From an uncultured Oscillospiraceae bacterium (GTDB lineage Bacteria; Bacillota; Clostridia; Oscillospirales; Oscillospiraceae), in contig CATMVA010000014.1 in NCBI GenBank assembly GCA_950075865.1, positions 1-61,262 on the forward strand: a stretch of 61,262 bases of DNA. The letters are read 5' to 3'. The notes beneath the pieces were generated by a model that saw only the letters and a list, made by a program, of their open reading frames with translations, was not told where the DNA came from and ran no database searches. Made by a program: the position numbers and the translations under genes. This document shows positions 50,689 to 57,806 of this stretch, in pieces (within the stretch, counting starts at the first letter, position 1; every line of letters starts with the position of its first letter).

Positions 50689-52500
50689 ATGACTGACCAA
50701 TCCAAAATTCGCAACTTCTCTATTATTGCCCACATTGACCACGGCAAATCCACCCTCTCCGACCGGCTCATCGAGCTGTGCGGCGCGGTGGAGCAGCGGG
50801 AGATGGAGTCCCAGCTCCTAGACAACATGGACCTGGAGCGGGAACGGGGCATCACCATCAAGGCCCGGGCCGTCCGGCTCTCCTACAAGGCCCTGGACGG
50901 GGAGACCTACCAACTCAACCTCATCGACACGCCGGGCCATGTGGACTTCAACTACGAGGTCTCCCGCTCCCTGGCCGCCTGCGAGGGGGCCGTTCTGGTG
51001 GTGGATGCCGCCCAGGGCATCGAGGCCCAGACCCTGGCCAACACCTACCTGGCACTGGAGCACGACCTGGAGATCCGTCCCGTGGTGAACAAGATCGACC
51101 TGCCTGCCGCCGACCCCCAGCGGGTCAAGAAGGAGATCGAGGACGTCATCGGTCTGGAGGCCGAGAACGCCCCCGAGATCTCGGCCAAAATAGGCATCAA
51201 CATCCAATCGGTGCTGGAGGATGTGGTCCAAAATATCCCCGCCCCCACCGGCGACCCCAAGGCCCCCCTGAAGGCCCTGATCTTTGACAGCCAGTATGAT
51301 GCCTACCGGGGAGTCATTGTCCTTTTCCGGGTCATGGACGGCACAGTCCGTAAGGGCATGAAGGTCCGTATGATGGCCTCGGGCGCCGAATATGACATTC
51401 TGGAGTGCGGCCACCTGCTTCCCCTGGGGCTGGAGCCCTGCCAGGAGCTGATCGCCGGCGAGGTGGGCTACCTCACCGCCTCCATCAAGAACGTGAAGGA
51501 CACCCGGGTGGGCGATACGGTGACTGAGGCCGGACGCCCCGCGGCCGAGGCCCTGCCCGGCTACCGGCCCGCCCAGGCCATGGTCTACTGCGGCATCTAT
51601 ACCGAGGACGGCTCCAAGTTCCCCGACCTGCGGGATGCCTTGGAAAAGCTCCAGCTCAACGACGCCTCCCTGTCCTTCGAGCCGGAATCCTCTGCCGCCC
51701 TGGGCTTCGGCTTCCGGTGCGGCTTCCTGGGCATGCTCCACATGGAGATCATCCAGGAGCGGCTGGAGCGGGAGTTCGACCTGGACCTGATCACCACCCT
51801 GCCCAGTGTCATCTACCGCATCACCAAGACCGACGGCACGGTAGTCATGGTGGACAATCCCCACAACTACCCCGACGTGGGCTCCATCCAGCTTGCCGAG
51901 GAGCCCTACGCCAAGGTGTCCATCATCGCGCCTCCCGACTATGTGGGCAACATCATGCCCCTCTGTCAGGACCGGCGGGGGGAGTTCAAGGACATGCAAT
52001 ACCTGGACACCAATCTGGTAGAGATCCACTACCAGATGCCCTTGGGAGAGATCATCTACGACTTCTTCGACACCCTAAAGGCCCGGACCAAGGGCTACGC
52101 CAGCCTGGACTATGAGCTCTCCGAGTACCGCCCCAGCGACCTTGTGAAGGTGGACCTGCTCCTCAACGGGGACCAGGTGGATGCCCTGAGCCTCATCGCC
52201 CACCGGGACAAAGCCTACCCCCGCGCCCGGCGGCTGTGCGAGAAGCTGAAGGAGAACATCCCCCGCCAGCTCTTCGAGGTGCCCATCCAGGCTGCCATCG
52301 GCGGCAAGGTCATCGCCCGCGAGACCCTGAAGGCCATGCGGAAGGACGTGCTGGCCAAGTGCTACGGCGGTGACATCACTCGGAAGAAGAAGCTGCTGGA
52401 AAAGCAGAAGGAAGGCAAGAAAAAGATGCGCTCCCTTGGCACCGTCCAGATCCCCACCGAAGCTTTTATGGCAGTTTTGAAATTGGATGAGGAGGGTTAA
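50689..52500 (+). CDS. lepA: Elongation factor 4 (LepA)
   Basis: 603 residues, normal length. G1 AHIDHGKST (from about 13), G3 DTPGHVDF (about 80), G4 NKID (about 134), then domains II, III, V and the LepA-specific C-terminal domain. It acts on stalled or mispaired ribosomes. The last 14 codons (from GAAGCTTTTATGGCA, about 52459) are AT-rich and use codons unlike the rest of the gene; the encoded end [14 protein letters not shown] is still a proper LepA end. A second, GC-rich copy of the end lies at 53134-53172 after an inserted gene, so the present terminus appears to be imported. Confidence 0.95.
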
Positions 52501-52502
52501 TT

Positions 52503-53102
52503 ATGAGTGGAGAAATGCGCGTATGGGGCATTCACACCATGGATGACAACTTATTTCTGCATAACAGTGTAATTGCCATTGGTTGGGAGGAAATGGGCAA
52601 CCTTTCTTCTATTCCCAATGACCGTGAAGCCTTTAAATCCAAATATATAGCTGTATATCCTGATGCAAAGAAAGGATCTGTTTCAACCTGCGCAGGTATG
52701 CTGCTTCGGTTTGCATATGAGATGCAGACTGGTGACTATGTGGTTTTTCCGTCCAAAATTGACCGAAAAATCAACATTGGTGTTATTGAAAGCCCGTATT
52801 ATTATAAGGATAACGCACATCATTATAAAAACCAACGTAAGGTAAAATGGCTAAAACATCTTCCACGGAACATTTTCCCTCAAGGAGCCCTTTATGAAGT
52901 CGGTTCTGCGTTGACCTTGTTTACTGTTAAAAACTACCCCGAGGAATTTTTAGGAGCATTGGACAACACTCCTGTCATTCGCGGTATTAGTGGAAGTGAA
53001 CTCGTGGAATTAGTCCTAAAGTATTATGATAACTTGGATGAAAAATATCGTAAAATCATTCCGCTGCAAAGGGTCTATATCCCTGCTCTGAATGTTGAAT
53101 AA
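52503..53102 (+). CDS. Mrr-N-terminal-like (EVE/PUA-type) protein without nuclease domain
   Basis: 199 residues, strongly AT-rich compared with both neighbours. The sequence RVWGIHTMDDNLFLHNS, AIGWEEMG, DYVVFPSKIDRKINIG, QRKVKWLKHLPR and GALYEVGSALTLFTVKNYP matches the N-terminal domain found in some Mrr-type restriction endonucleases, a fold thought to read modified bases. The usual C-terminal PD-(D/E)xK nuclease part is absent; the protein simply ends. Its GGAGGG ribosome site is made of the last codons of lepA. Either it is a stand-alone reader or the remnant of a restriction gene. It is part of the insert between lepA and its old end. Confidence 0.8.
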   Translation: MSGEMRVWGIHTMDDNLFLHNSVIAIGWEEMGNLSSIPNDREAFKSKYIAVYPDAKKGSVSTCAGMLLRFAYEMQTGDYVVFPSKIDRKINIGVIESPYYYKDNAHHYKNQRKVKWLKHLPRNIFPQGALYEVGSALTLFTVKNYPEEFLGALDNTPVIRGISGSELVELVLKYYDNLDEKYRKIIPLQRVYIPALNVE

Positions 53103-53133
53103 ATTGAATTGTATTAGCATTGGTGCGCCTAAC

Positions 53134-53172
53134 ACCTTCATCGCCGTGCTGAAATTGGACGAAGAAACGTGA
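53134..53172 (+). pseudogene. Orphan 3' end of lepA
   Basis: The 12 codons and stop read [12 protein letters not shown], a classical LepA C-terminus, in GC-rich codons like the rest of lepA. They match the current lepA end ([12 protein letters not shown]), with the shared core TGAAATTGGA, and are followed at once by the presumed native terminator. There is no start codon or ribosome site. This is the displaced original end of lepA. Confidence 0.85.
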
Positions 53173-53176
53173 AAAC

Positions 53177-53213
53177 AGCCCCGCCGCCGGGTATAACCCG
53201 GCGGCGGGGCTTT
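53177..53213. terminator. Terminator of lepA and of the yczE-like gene
   Basis: A 16-bp perfect stem AGCCCCGCCGCCGGGT with loop ATA. On the plus strand TTTGAT follows, on the minus strand GTTTTC, so it can end both convergent transcripts. Confidence 0.85.
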
Positions 53214-53230
53214 GATATGTTCTATGCAGT

Positions 53231-53881
53231 TTATTCCTCCAGCCCCATAAGGGGCTCCAGCCGTTTTTGGAACAGCCTGTCAAAGACCTCCATCACCCGG
53301 CCCACGCCCACGACGCCCACCAGAGTACCGATACCCAAGGCACACATGAAATGGCCTGTGACGAGGCCCAGCACGAAGGTCACCGCCATGCAGAAGAGAT
53401 CAAACAGGTTTTTGGTCAGCCCCAGTTCCACCCCAAACCGCCGGGATATGGCCTCCACAATGCCGTCCCCCGCCCCGGGGATAAGCCTTGCGCTGAGGCA
53501 CAGCGCCGCCCCGATGCCGGTGAAAAGGACCGCCCCAAGAAGCAGCAGCACCTTGCCCTTGCCCCACAGCAATTTTGGCTCCATGATGACAGCATCCATC
53601 CAGTTCAGCACCCGGCTGAGGGCAAGGCTCACTGCCACCTGCCCCAGAACAGGCAGCCACTCCCTCCGGGGCTTCAAAAAGAGCTGCGCCGCCGCGCACA
53701 GGGCGTAAAAAACAAACATGCCGTCCCCGAACTCTACCCCCCAAACGAGGGCGGCAAAATAGGGGGTAGTGGACATAGCGGAGGTGCCCAGGGCGCATTT
53801 GTTGTGGAGGGTCAGCCCCAGGGCCAGAATGAGCAGTCCCAGCACATAGAGCCCACCCCGCCAAAGGTATCTTTTCTTCAT
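53231..53881 (-). CDS. YczE/YyaS/YitT family membrane protein
   Basis: 216 residues with five hydrophobic segments (about 8-25, 50-68, 80-98, 112-131, 160-190). Family features are GLTLHNKCALGTSAMSTTPY near 22 and LIPGAGDGIVEAISRRFG near 133. These membrane proteins have no settled function, though some act in export or regulation. Its start overlaps the flavodiiron gene's stop (ATGA), so it is the second gene of that operon. Confidence 0.85.
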   Translation of the reverse strand: MKKRYLWRGGLYVLGLLILALGLTLHNKCALGTSAMSTTPYFAALVWGVEFGDGMFVFYALCAAAQLFLKPRREWLPVLGQVAVSLALSRVLNWMDAVIMEPKLLWGKGKVLLLLGAVLFTGIGAALCLSARLIPGAGDGIVEAISRRFGVELGLTKNLFDLFCMAVTFVLGLVTGHFMCALGIGTLVGVVGVGRVMEVFDRLFQKRLEPLMGLEE

Positions 53882-55083
53882 GTCCCCTTCACCGACACGG
53901 CCACGGCGTCGGCCAGAGCCTCCAGCTCCCCGGCCTGATCGGCCTTGAGTGTAGACTTCATCGTTACTTTCGCTTCCAGCAGCGTGCCCCCCAGCTCCCC
54001 GGTGACGAACTCCCCCATCAGCTTGCCCGAGTTGGGGGCCCAGGTGCCGTTCTCCAGCAGGGCGAAGATCCTCCCTCGGAGCCCCAAGGCCTTCATGTCC
54101 TCCAGATAATCCCGCACAGGCGGGTAAAAGTCCATATTGTAGGTGACGCTGGCCAGAACGATGTGGGAATAGCGGAAGCTCTCGGCGATGAGCCGGGACA
54201 CATGGGTGGAGGACACGTCGTAAAGAGCGGTCTCCACCCCCCGCTCCGTAAGAGCGGCGCAGAGGGCCTCGGCAGCCAGCTCGGTGCCGCCGTACATAGA
54301 TCCGTAGACCACCAGCGCGCCCTTCTCCTCAGGCTCGTAACGGCTCCAGAGGTCGTACTTGCCCATAAACCAGTCCAAATCGCTCCGCCAGACCGGCCCG
54401 TGGAGGGGGCAGAGCATCCGGATATCCAGCCCCCTGGCCTTGGCCAGCAGGGCCTGGACCTGAGGACCATACTTGCCCACGATGTTGGTGTAGTACCGCC
54501 GGGCCCCGGCGAGCCGTGTGTGCTCAAAGTCCGTCTCGTCGTTAAACAGCCTGCCGTTCAGGGCCCCAAAGGTGCCAAAGGCGTCGGCGGTGAAGAGCAC
54601 CTTGTCAGTCTCCTCGTAGGACACCATCACATCGGGCCAGTGGACCATGGGGGCGGCATAGAATGTGACGGCGTGTCTGCCGAAGGACAGCCGCTCTCCC
54701 TCCTTGGCCACGATGCACTCCCCCTTGACCGGCGCAAACCCGAACTGGTCCAGAAAGCGCTGGGCGGCCAGACTGGATACCAGCTTGGCCTCCGGCCACT
54801 TCTGCAGAACGGCCCACAGCCCGGCCCCGTGGTCGGGTTCCAGATGGTGGAGAACAATGTAGTCCAGCCCCCGGCCATTCAGAAGATACTCCACATTCTC
54901 CACCAGCCGGGGGGCGGCCGACCAGTCCACGCAGTCGAAAAGGACGGTCTTCTCATCCAGCAGCAGGTAGGAGTTATAGCTCACTCCCTCCGGAATGGGG
55001 TGGATATTTTCAAACAGGGCGGTGCGCCGGTCGTCGGCCCCCACCCACCACAGGTCATCGGTGACTTTGCGGACACAGTGCAT
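53878..55083 (-). CDS. FprA family A-type flavoprotein (flavodiiron protein)
   Basis: 401 residues. A metallo-beta-lactamase-like domain holds the di-iron ligands HHLEPDHG (near 78) and further His/Asp in PMVHWPDVMV (near 145) and LCPLHGPVW (near 220). The C-terminal flavodoxin domain begins near 253 with YGSMYGGTE, an FMN phosphate loop. Such proteins reduce oxygen to water or nitric oxide to N2O in the cytoplasm and protect anaerobes. I start at the ATG with AAGGAGAG 8 bases upstream, 13 codons inside the longest frame. The yczE-like gene is co-transcribed. Confidence 0.95.
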   Translation of the reverse strand: MHCVRKVTDDLWWVGADDRRTALFENIHPIPEGVSYNSYLLLDEKTVLFDCVDWSAAPRLVENVEYLLNGRGLDYIVLHHLEPDHGAGLWAVLQKWPEAKLVSSLAAQRFLDQFGFAPVKGECIVAKEGERLSFGRHAVTFYAAPMVHWPDVMVSYEETDKVLFTADAFGTFGALNGRLFNDETDFEHTRLAGARRYYTNIVGKYGPQVQALLAKARGLDIRMLCPLHGPVWRSDLDWFMGKYDLWSRYEPEEKGALVVYGSMYGGTELAAEALCAALTERGVETALYDVSSTHVSRLIAESFRYSHIVLASVTYNMDFYPPVRDYLEDMKALGLRGRIFALLENGTWAPNSGKLMGEFVTGELGGTLLEAKVTMKSTLKADQAGELEALADAVAVSVKGT

Positions 55084-55183
55084 GGAATGTCTCTCCTTCG
55101 TTTTGTTTTTCAGCTTTTGCATTTTACCACGGCCCTATCCAAAATGGAAGTCTGTTTCATATCAAAAAAGCCCCGGTCGGCTT

Positions 55184-55387
55184 CTATTTCTGCTTCCGGC
55201 CCAGAAGATAGTCCACCGAGACCTTGTAAAAATCGGCCAAAGTCAGAAGATGATGTACGGGGATCTCCTGGATCCCTTTCTCATACTTGTAATACTGCTG
55301 CTGTGTAGTCCCCAGCAGTTCGCCGATGGCCGCCTGGGTCAGGTCCCGGTCCTCCCGCAGATCCCGCAGTCTGGGATAACAATACAT
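55184..55387 (-). CDS. Small XRE-type helix-turn-helix regulator
   Basis: 67 residues from the ATG chosen by GAGGTGAG spacing; a GTG three codons earlier lies within that ribosome site. The whole protein is one Cro/C1 domain (LRDLREDRDLTQAAIGELLG, TTQQQYYKYEKGIQEIP, FYKVSVDYLLGRKQK). It sits alone upstream of the flavodiiron operon on the same strand, about 100 bases away, and may regulate it. Confidence 0.88.
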   Translation of the reverse strand: MYCYPRLRDLREDRDLTQAAIGELLGTTQQQYYKYEKGIQEIPVHHLLTLADFYKVSVDYLLGRKQK

Positions 55388-55480
55388 AAAACTCACCTCA
55401 GAAAAACCATATCATAAATCCAATCAGATGTATTAATTTTAAATTTGATAAGGTTTAATATGGGGTTAGAGGTAAGTTGA

Positions 55481-55684
55481 ATAACAGAGTATCAAAAGGT
55501 TTACGCCGGGGAAAAGGTATGCTTCACCTGCCGTTATTACATTCAACATTATGGGCGGGACAAAAAGAAGTATTACATTCTGGCCTGCGGCCACTGTATC
55601 TTCCCCCGGATCAAAACCCGAGCCTCCGAACAGACCTGCAAACATTGGAAGGCCATAAAAGAGGAGCCGGTCAGCGAAAGCTGA
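55481..55684 (+). CDS. Cys-rich mini-protein with apparent ATA start (possibly start-lost)
   Basis: 67 residues if read from ATA at 55481. The frame reads ITEYQKVYAGEKVCFTCRYY and continues through YYILACGHCIFPR and EQTCKHWKA. Two CxxC pairs, another Cys and a His suggest a small zinc-ribbon fold. GAGG lies exactly 8 bases before the ATA and no ATG, GTG or TTG exists in frame upstream before a stop, so either ATA is used or the start was mutated from ATG. The C-terminal codons lie inside the terminator stem of the convergent gene. Not recognised by name; similar short Cys-rich proteins occur in Clostridia. Confidence 0.55.
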   Translation: MTEYQKVYAGEKVCFTCRYYIQHYGRDKKKYYILACGHCIFPRIKTRASEQTCKHWKAIKEEPVSES

Positions 55685-55692
55685 CCGGCTCC
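55657..55692 (-). terminator. Terminator of the DUF4358 gene at 55.7-56.6 kb
   Basis: A 13-bp perfect stem GGAGCCGGTCAGC with loop GAAA (55663-55692), followed on the minus strand by TCTTTTATGG. Confidence 0.85.
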
Positions 55693-55709
55693 CGATCCGT
55701 TGATCCGGC

Positions 55710-56645
55710 TTACTTCTCCATGGCTGCCACGGCGGTCCGGAAGTCCTCCACCATCTCCTCGGCATTCTCGGAGATCACGAAGAGGAACCATTCCCCTTCG
55801 GTGACGAACTTGGCGTTCTGCACCTTGGGCAGATTCTGGCTCAGATACCAGGAGAAGGTGCTCTCCTGCTGCTGGCGGTAAGACTCAAAGACTGCCTCCA
55901 ACGCCTCCTCCTGGCCCGGAGCTACCCTACCCACGCCTAAGGTGTCGGGGGTGGTCATCATGCCGGTGTAGACCACGGCCTCGGTGACCAGATCAGCCTT
56001 GAAGCCGTGATTATCGCCCCAGTAGGTCTCCAGCTCCTCGGGTCCCTGCCGCATCCCCCACATACCGGCCGTCTCCAAAAGCTGGTTGGCCAGCTTCATC
56101 AGGCGGGTGCCGTTGGGGGTAGCTATCTCATAGCTCTCCGCCCCGCCAGCCGAGGTCTGGGTGACCGTGAAGCCCTCCAGCTCATTGATCACGGACACGG
56201 GAAGATAGGTGACTCCCCGCACCAGCAGGGGCTCCACCCCCTCCAGCTTCACATCGTCCACTGTCACCGTCATATCGTCAAAATAGGTACAGATGGTAAA
56301 GTCCCACAGCTTGAACCAGCTGTAATTTTCCTCCTCATACCAGTAGACCCAGCCTCCGTCGGCTTGGGTCACCGCCCGCAGGGGCACGTAGCCCGCCGGC
56401 ACGGCGGGCAGGTCGGACAGGTACACCGTGACGGTTTCCTCCGCCCCGGTCTCAGGGTCGGTCACCGGGCCCTCAAAAGACTCCAGCGCCGTACCGTTGA
56501 TGGTGATGGCGGCGCCGTACCCGGCGTTGGGGTTGGGAGCGATGAGCAGACCACTGGTGGGCACGGCTTTCTCTATAGCCAAGGCGGTGGGGGCGGCGGC
56601 CAGGGCCAATGCCAGGGCCAATGCGGGAATACGTTTGCGGTTCAT
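55710..56645 (-). CDS. Exported protein: stalk-like domain plus DUF4358
   Basis: 311 residues. A Sec signal peptide (MNRKRIPALALALALAAAPTA) is cut near residue 23. Residues 25-160 look like a copper-amine-oxidase-N/stalk domain (GLLIAPNPNAGYGAAITING, VPAGYVPLRAV, VRGVTYLPVSVI). The C-terminal 120 residues (about 190-310) are DUF4358-like (VVYTGMMTTPDTLGVGR, YRQQQESTFSWYL). The protein is probably on the cell surface. A paralog lies directly upstream at 56.8-57.8 kb, and both are preceded by the same ECF-type promoter. Confidence 0.85.
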   Translation of the reverse strand: MNRKRIPALALALALAAAPTALAIEKAVPTSGLLIAPNPNAGYGAAITINGTALESFEGPVTDPETGAEETVTVYLSDLPAVPAGYVPLRAVTQADGGWVYWYEEENYSWFKLWDFTICTYFDDMTVTVDDVKLEGVEPLLVRGVTYLPVSVINELEGFTVTQTSAGGAESYEIATPNGTRLMKLANQLLETAGMWGMRQGPEELETYWGDNHGFKADLVTEAVVYTGMMTTPDTLGVGRVAPGQEEALEAVFESYRQQQESTFSWYLSQNLPKVQNAKFVTEGEWFLFVISENAEEMVEDFRTAVAAMEK

Positions 56646-56792: not shown

Positions 56793-57806
56793 TCAGCGGG
56801 GGCGGGCGCCGCTCTGTCCGGCCTCCACCTGGGCGATCCCCTCCTGGAAGAGCTGGATGGCCCGGTCGTTGTCAGCGGACATAATGAGCATGACATATTT
56901 CCCGTCAGCGCTCTCCACGATCTGGCCGTTCTTGGCTATCTCAAGAGGGCCGGCCAGATACTGCTCAAAACTCTGGATCTGGGCGTCCTGGTAAGCCTTC
57001 AGCGCAGCCTTGCCGGCCTCCTTGTCGGCCCCCTCGGCGTACTTTCCGATGATGACGGAATCAGAACGAATGTTCATCATGGGGATCTGGCCGGAAAGCT
57101 CCTCAAAAGCCGAGATGTCGATATCCATAAATCCAAACCACTCGGCGGGTTCACTGCCGGAGGACATCTCCAGTGCATCATGGATCGAGCCGACCAGCTT
57201 CTGGAGCGGGGTCCCGGGGATCTCGATGGTTACATCAAAGTACTCCTTGCCGTCCTCAGCGTAGCTGTTCACCGTGATGCCGTCCAGGGTGGACAGGAAC
57301 TCGGCGGGCAGGTAGGTGATACCCCCGCGCAGGTAGCAGGAATAGCCCTCCTGAAGGACCTCGTTCCGGTCCTCGTCCCGGATGTAGATGGAATTGTCGT
57401 CAAAGTTGGTGTAGATCATGGTCCCATTGAGATAGAACATGGACCGATTCTCTTCCTTGTACCAACTGGCCGAACCCTTTTCAGTAGCCTGACACAGCAG
57501 GCGCATGGGCACATAGCCCGCGGGGGTGCCGGGCAGCTCGTTGATGGCATACACCACGTCGTTGGTCTTCCAAGAGCCTTCGATGGGCTTGGAGTAGGTC
57601 ACCGACTCGATCTCGGTGCCGTTAAGGGTGACCACGCCCCTGTACTTCTCCGTCACAGCGTTGGGGTTGGCGGAGATGAGGAGGGCTCCCCGGGCGCCGT
57701 CGGCGGGGGTCCATCCGTCAGGACGCTCGCTGGCAAAGGCCGGGGCCGTCAGGCTGGCGGTCAGGGCCAGTGCCAGCGCGGCGGCAGAAAATTGTTTCAT
57801 GTGCAT
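56793..57806 (-). CDS. Exported protein: stalk-like domain plus DUF4358 (paralog)
   Basis: 337 residues with the same build as its downstream neighbour: signal peptide MKQFSAAALALALTASLTAP region, ISANPNAVTEKYRGVVTLNG, a VPMRLLCQA turn, LRGGITYLPAEFLSTLDGI, and a C-terminal DUF4358-like domain (IRSDSVIIGKYAEGADKEAG). The pairwise match is clear by pattern but well diverged, so the duplication is old. There is a second possible start two codons in (MKQF...). Its promoter is the second GGAAC-N16-CGTCTAAA element, placed between it and the kinase-like gene. Confidence 0.85.
   Translation of the reverse strand: MHMKQFSAAALALALTASLTAPAFASERPDGWTPADGARGALLISANPNAVTEKYRGVVTLNGTEIESVTYSKPIEGSWKTNDVVYAINELPGTPAGYVPMRLLCQATEKGSASWYKEENRSMFYLNGTMIYTNFDDNSIYIRDEDRNEVLQEGYSCYLRGGITYLPAEFLSTLDGITVNSYAEDGKEYFDVTIEIPGTPLQKLVGSIHDALEMSSGSEPAEWFGFMDIDISAFEELSGQIPMMNIRSDSVIIGKYAEGADKEAGKAALKAYQDAQIQSFEQYLAGPLEIAKNGQIVESADGKYVMLIMSADNDRAIQLFQEGIAQVEAGQSGARPR

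Follow-up and report, generated by a model that had tools for sequence, protein, structure and literature searches.

Integration at the 3' ends of genes with restoration of the interrupted codons is a classical pattern. Elements that carry an integrase restore the gene end and leave a native-looking end downstream, and free-standing homing endonucleases place a small gene of a nuclease family beside the end of a conserved gene; both arrangements resemble the one described here, at the 3' end of lepA in an uncultured Oscillospiraceae bacterium. Insertion with long target duplication has been described in Helicobacter, often with restriction-modification genes (Nobusato et al. 2000, Gene 259:99; PMC1643837). 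As in the available part of that description, a restriction-type gene at the lepA locus is flanked by copies of host sequence, here the lepA tail and an orphan lepA tail, which form a 29-nt direct repeat with 76% identity and a start-to-start spacing of 672. Compared with the same part of the description, however, the duplicate at lepA is short (36 nt) and diverged (76%), the gene end appears to have been synonymously replaced, and the cargo has a deleted nuclease domain. The locus has been analysed within a stretch of 61,262 nucleotides (contig CATMVA010000014.1 of assembly GCA_950075865.1), the whole of which is called the window; the genome assembly comprises 37 contigs and is 89% complete.

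The anatomy that the first-pass annotation had read from the letters, an AT-rich lepA end followed 2 bases after its stop by a gene, then by an orphan lepA tail with its own stop and by a terminator, holds in both description and coordinates (Table 1). The annotated contrast in composition is likewise real, with a GC content of ~0.40 across the insert and ~0.62 in its surroundings.

Table 1 Features at the 3' end of lepA and immediately downstream (positions in the window).
Feature	Position	Strand	Remarks
lepA (elongation factor 4)	50689..52500	+	603 aa, intact; last 13 codons AT-rich, putatively replaced
Rebuilt lepA terminus	52459..52500	+	GAA GCT TTT ATG GCA GTT TTG AAA TTG GAT GAG GAG GGT TAA
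Shine-Dalgarno-like GAGGAGG within the final lepA codons	52489..52496	+	Sequence; putative ribosome site
Inserted gene, 199 aa	52503..53102	+	Relative of PDC-S02/Mrr-type restriction enzymes; Mrr_cat deleted in frame, EVE/YTH-like N-domain kept
Spacer, inserted gene to orphan tail	53103..53136	+	34 bases; without visible lepA similarity
Orphan lepA tail, putative displaced native end	53137..53172	+	TTC ATC GCC GTG CTG AAA TTG GAC GAA GAA ACG TGA; from 53134 if ACC (T) is included
Intrinsic-terminator-like hairpin	53177..53211	+	Perfect 16-bp inverted repeat 53177-53192 / 53196-53211, 3-nt loop
DUF6198-like protein	53231-53881	-	Pfam match below cut-off; outside the insert
FprA/flavodiiron-like protein	53878-55122	-	Name by inspection; outside the insert

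The native end of lepA was probably displaced by an AT-rich insert that carried replacement lepA codons together with one gene. Approximately 0.67 kb of AT-rich DNA would have entered the final ~37 bases of lepA and supplied a synonymous replacement of the last 13 codons, with the gene placed just beyond the new stop; LepA would have stayed whole because the insert brought synonymous last codons. The native last codons and the terminator would have been shifted downstream, a direction of events to which the observed anatomy and composition point. The GAGGAGG in the lepA tail would probably serve as ribosome site for the inserted gene, whose transcript would end at the old lepA terminator. The hairpin at 53177-53211 is presumably the native terminator of lepA that now ends both lepA and the inserted gene. 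The DEE codons of the lepA end resemble a ribosome site. The insertion would resemble the insertion with long target duplication of restriction genes, except that the duplicate is short and has diverged. The enzyme responsible would not have been encoded within the insert: 52503-53136 holds no long ORF besides the PDC-S02-like gene, and no integrase is present there, as had been claimed. The locus clearly exemplifies an inserted gene that seemingly brought synonymous codons of a housekeeping gene and left the old end behind, and its cargo is one gene of a defence family without a recombinase.

The composition of the two tails indicates which of them is foreign. Nucleotides 1-1772 of lepA are 85-89% identical to the full-length lepA of other species in the genus. 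The GC content at third codon positions (GC3) drops from 0.88 in the remainder of lepA to 0.38 in the present tail; the orphan tail reaches 0.75, computed on 12 codons starting with ACC at 53134. None of 20,000 tails simulated under lepA's own codon usage is as unlikely as the present 13-codon tail; the 13 codons that precede it are unremarkable (P 0.55). The orphan tail, mildly unusual (P 0.04), fits better than the present tail. In relatives (59 loci examined, 51 usable), the end of lepA is on average a little richer in AT than the remainder of the gene, with a mean GC3 change of -0.05, and the drop in the present tail exceeds that in all 51. On the most economical reading, the AT-rich DNA brought the replacement codons, and the GC-richer orphan with its terminator is the displaced native end. 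The codon test supports the earlier claim that the 3' end of lepA received AT-rich DNA equipped with its own terminal codons, and a native-looking end and terminator do lie downstream.

The orphan is recognizable as a lepA tail from both nucleotides and peptide. A degenerate lepA-tail pattern, with up to two mismatches allowed, matches only two sites in the genome, both of them here, and the backward control of the pattern has no match anywhere in the genome. The orphan peptide aligned to the last 14 residues of LepA scores 44, and the best of 100 shuffles scores 26. The orphan reads T-F-I(-A-V) where 51 relatives read A-F-M(-A-V) or A-F-L(-A-V), and judging from these residues it is either drifted or of other origin. 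It would represent the native lepA end, displaced by ~0.67 kb.

The inserted gene matches PDC-S02 of PADLOC (E 3.4e-73), a group of Mrr-type single-gene candidates to which its N-domain and C-terminal segment are homologous. The candidates contain the Mrr_cat nuclease; by contrast, the window copy lacks it. Alignments to seven full-length homologues (59-68% identity) have a single gap of ~130 residues, which falls where Mrr_cat is located in a full-length homologue (residues 189-297); outside this in-frame gap, the aligned ORF contains no stops and no frameshifts. The relatives are ~330-360 aa long, and the window copy is therefore an internally deleted one. A Pfam search of the window copy returned no family at E up to 1. 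The N-domain has a predicted PUA-like fold of the EVE/YTH modified-base readers, like that of MJECL36, PH1033, YTHDF2 and the N-domain of VcaM4I; binding of a modified base is likewise a prediction. The gene is thus modified-base-reader-like by predicted fold and belongs to a defence-candidate family; the annotated 'Mrr-N-like' gene is, however, the internally deleted copy of a longer gene. The full-length enzyme, of the Mrr/PDC-S02 kind, is probably modification-dependent. The nuclease domain was lost in frame, before or after arrival, and the present protein may be a reader lacking its cutter, either decaying or retained as a binding protein.

The family of the inserted gene is mobile: its relatives are found on plasmids (33 records) and on one viral contig. 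Among 400 genomes of the bacterial family, 16 others contain a relative, and in all 11 of those that could be placed against lepA, with the other five outside the placement, it lies on a different contig from lepA. The tail copying has been looked for at 18 other PDC-S02 loci. Fourteen were testable at the peptide level (L039, L040, L041 and L070 were excluded, and some loci represent one genome in two collections); they score 18-29, compared with the 44 of the window's own copy, which none of 100 shuffles reach. Five near-identical loci have one common weak match inside a downstream gene; its score is 25-29, a level attained by 0-16 of 100 shuffles, and it is taken for chance or paralogy. A nucleotide test found no tail copy at the 18 loci, but the same test missed the window's own copy and is given no weight. 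On the evidence of these loci, the PDC-S02 gene family does not show tail copying as a constant feature. The suggestion of a homing-like unit finds no support here: unlike a free-standing homing endonuclease, the gene has no nuclease domain and therefore cannot act as a homing endonuclease at present, no intact donor is at hand, and no convincing copy of the upstream gene tail exists at the 14 testable loci.

Relatives with an uninterrupted GC-rich lepA end beside the same terminator had been expected. None has been found: among 12 lepA ends from 11 genomes of the genus, no uninterrupted pre-insertion lepA has an orphan-type end beside the same terminator. These ends have a 13-residue ending, or -EEN, -EAT or -DE; they are uninterrupted or carry a short repeat, and none has the inserted gene or shares the downstream sequence of the window.

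In relatives, insertions frequently strike the 3' end of lepA and duplicate it. At least two lepA-tail matches occur in 24 of the 400 family genomes, from which three have been dropped, since the second match lies in another gene (G147), at inverted contig ends (G260), or the matches are at two contig ends (G366). The tail is duplicated in the remaining 21, three with a gene-sized insert and 18 with a short repeat. The spacing of the tails is 174-271 nt in the 18 short cases, 672 in the genome studied here, 1193 in G203, and 1587 in G121. Another member of the same genus, G012, is a nineteenth short-repeat case.

The different cargo found between two lepA tails in G121 and G203 lends partial support to the idea of a defence hot spot. 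The G121 insert contains a 324-aa ORF that matches another PADLOC single-gene candidate, PDC-S14 (E 4.5e-31), and its second lepA copy is the final 282 nt of the gene, with three differences across the 200 nt upstream of the tail. In G203, an opposite-strand ORF that is lipoprotein-like by inspection lies between the lepA copies. The two unrelated defence-type candidates, here and in G121, are the best support for a hot spot; together they suggest that single defence genes can settle as cargo at the 3' end of lepA and may then be carried on the lepA transcript. PDC-S14 as a common lepA cargo has been rejected, as it matches only two of the 400 genomes (G121 and G034). A GIY-YIG domain in the G121 ORF has also been rejected, since it is absent from Pfam matches at E up to 0.1, which include only DUF4357, below cut-off. 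At L159:3589-4563 of G121, the PDC-S14-like gene has a DUF4357-like C-terminus, with hairpin-rich repeats and the 282-nt lepA copy at its bounds.

In the 19 small lepA cases, only a few bases separate the lepA stop from the start of the inserted piece. At most loci it starts with a segment complementary to the G-K-K-K-M-R codons of lepA, shortened in G190 and G191; a repeat body with several hairpins follows, and the second tail starts at the G-K-K-K-M-R codons or a few bases from them. The body has been confirmed at 16 of the 19 by BLAST or a covariance model and at the other three, two of them shortened, by alignment alone. It is a dispersed, strongly structured repeat of ~140 nt. In one genus it matches in 20 of 20 genomes searched, 3-32 times each among up to 40 candidates per genome. 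The covariance model R1 was built on 26 copies and has 29 pairs, 18 of them with changes on both sides. With up to 150 candidates scored per genome, it finds at least 58 copies in G339, at least 52 in G115, at least 37 in G193, and at least 21 in G241, and none in seven of the 20 genomes searched. An Rfam comparison of nine repeat loci and of 52300-55800 of the window gave no family at or above its gathering score. At the level of titles and abstracts, no description of the structured repeat and nothing on lepA as such an insertion site have been found in the literature.

At other genes, the arms of the repeat differ and match the local gene. This has been quantified for 79 copies from 60 regions, taken from the best-scoring listed hits in four genomes and hence not a random sample; a weak hit, L293:628-740, was dropped. 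A direct repeat of 27-207 nt, with its right copy abutting the element, is present in 67 of the 79 copies, as opposed to 0/158 controls with swapped flanks and 1/126 with shifted positions. These 67 copies come from 51 loci, as some copies are tandem. Exact complementarity of at least 8 nt between a segment near the element start and the left duplication boundary occurs in 38 of the 67 copies (33 of the 51 loci), compared with 16/402 at shifted boundaries; the other 29 copies lack 8 nt. The complementary segment sits at or just before the start of the body. A first guide test, with a threshold of at least 9 nt, was positive for 33/79 copies, with controls at 14/395 (swapped) and 10/237 (shifted). 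A frame of at least 100 codons ends at most 160 nt upstream of 53/79 copies versus 276/790 random positions, and the gene stop lies inside the duplication in 33/67. The link of the repeat to gene ends is clear, not universal.

The small-repeat loci in other genomes are L185-L214 and L254-L313, and those at lepA are L071, L074 and L160-L177. A gene end that is rnhA-like by inspection has been hit in G003 (L323:1300-1900), L190 and L212, in two genera and with the same complementary segment GCGTGGCCCTT; an aspS-like gene, also named by inspection, is among the targets of the repeat. G508, from another family of the order, has four tandem lepA tails with spacings of 216, 236 and 236 (L322:1068-1996); the element body lies between the tails, and the later units are partly replaced by other sequence.

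From its arms and duplications, the structured repeat can be read as an element that duplicates its target. It is possible, albeit doubtful, that gene 3' ends are targets of a guided, target-duplicating insertion, in which a ~140-nt element with an 8-16 nt segment complementary to the left boundary duplicates 27-207 nt by RNA- or single-stranded DNA-guided, target-primed copying, and that the defence inserts in the window and in G121 use the same weak spot or machinery. If this were true, the repeat would represent a previously undescribed type of small mobile element in bacteria, one that is testable in culturable gut species. The window insert and the small repeat have in common the lepA end, the tail copy and the lack of a recombinase, and the gene-sized inserts may be linked to the small repeat.

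A related but unlikely explanation of the window is that the orphan is the right-hand copy left by a short tail-duplicating repeat, and that the reader gene, arriving later, took the place of the repeat body and of the beginning of that copy. Two close lepA tails are present in 18 of the 400 family genomes and in G012, and the same genus supplies G007 and G012 among them, as well as G008 with a repeat start at a contig end. Against this, the window contains no repeat body (no covariance matches at E up to 1), and none was found among 150 scored of 861 candidates in its genome. No complementary segment is evident in the 41 nt after the lepA stop, where the longest exact complement to the lepA 3' region is 6 nt, compared with 5-8 nt at 20 other insert places. 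The orphan begins at F, unlike the 19 aligned cases, whose second tails start near the G-K-K-K codons, and the two tails in the window are more diverged. Since the body and the complementary segment are absent and the orphan starts at a different codon, the window insert is not a member of the repeat family.

The relic of a site-specific integrase element, in which the lepA end is attL, the orphan is attR, the crossover lies in the 10-bp core TGAAATTGGA, and the integrase and most of the cargo have been lost, is very unlikely, even though restored codons after gene-end integration are well precedented and the core is identical in both tails. The shared core pointed out in the first-pass annotation is real, but it falls within conserved lepA coding sequence (K-L-D) and makes a poor site for crossover, given that the AT-rich codons start upstream of it. 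A crossover at the core predicts native codons to its left in lepA, where AT-rich ones are observed, and an element-derived left part of the orphan, which is GC-rich instead. Site-specific exchange at the core has therefore been rejected on composition. Furthermore, unlike integrase elements, the window insert contains no integrase, and none of the same-contig, same-orientation tail pairs, 174-1587 apart, bounds a large element (G426, G147 and G366, with tails on separate contigs, were left out). The single viral contig with the lepA-tail pattern carries an ordinary lepA, with one tail match in 8.7 kb, and a prophage or viral origin has been rejected as well. The most improbable explanation is that the lepA tail was duplicated locally by an ordinary event and that an unrelated gene later separated the two copies, both of which drifted. 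Although tail duplications are not rare in the family (21/400), the differences between the tails are almost all synonymous despite the freedom of the orphan to drift, and drift alone does not account for the AT-rich bias of the copy inside lepA.

The genes downstream of the insert vary in position among relatives. The pair of DUF6198-like and FprA genes also occurs in G015, at 85% nucleotide identity, and in G014 FprA also follows lepA. The place of FprA, whether or not the DUF6198-like gene accompanies it, thus shifts: G011 and G012 have it on the side of pta, and G015 on a contig without lepA (L314, L315, L073, L079). DUF6198 as a fixed lepA neighbour has been rejected, because it is not adjacent to lepA in the relatives examined and the G015 contig has no lepA. 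A hairpin in the window at 55655-55700, GAGCCGGTCAGC..GCTGACCGGCTC, resembles one between lepA and a convergent gene in G006 (L008), and in that genome a convergent gene like that at 55710-56645 of the window adjoins lepA. The block 52500-55650 may be newly placed between lepA and the convergent gene. At 55466-55665 a cysteine-rich open frame (FTCRYYIQHYGRDKKKYYILACGHCIFPRIKTR) that has no clear start lies in AT-rich surroundings and gives the impression of perhaps being a mobile-element remnant. The neighbouring genes at 55710-56645 and 56793-57806 are paralogous, their products are, by impression, probably secreted, and in G006, G002 and G014 one locus matches both.
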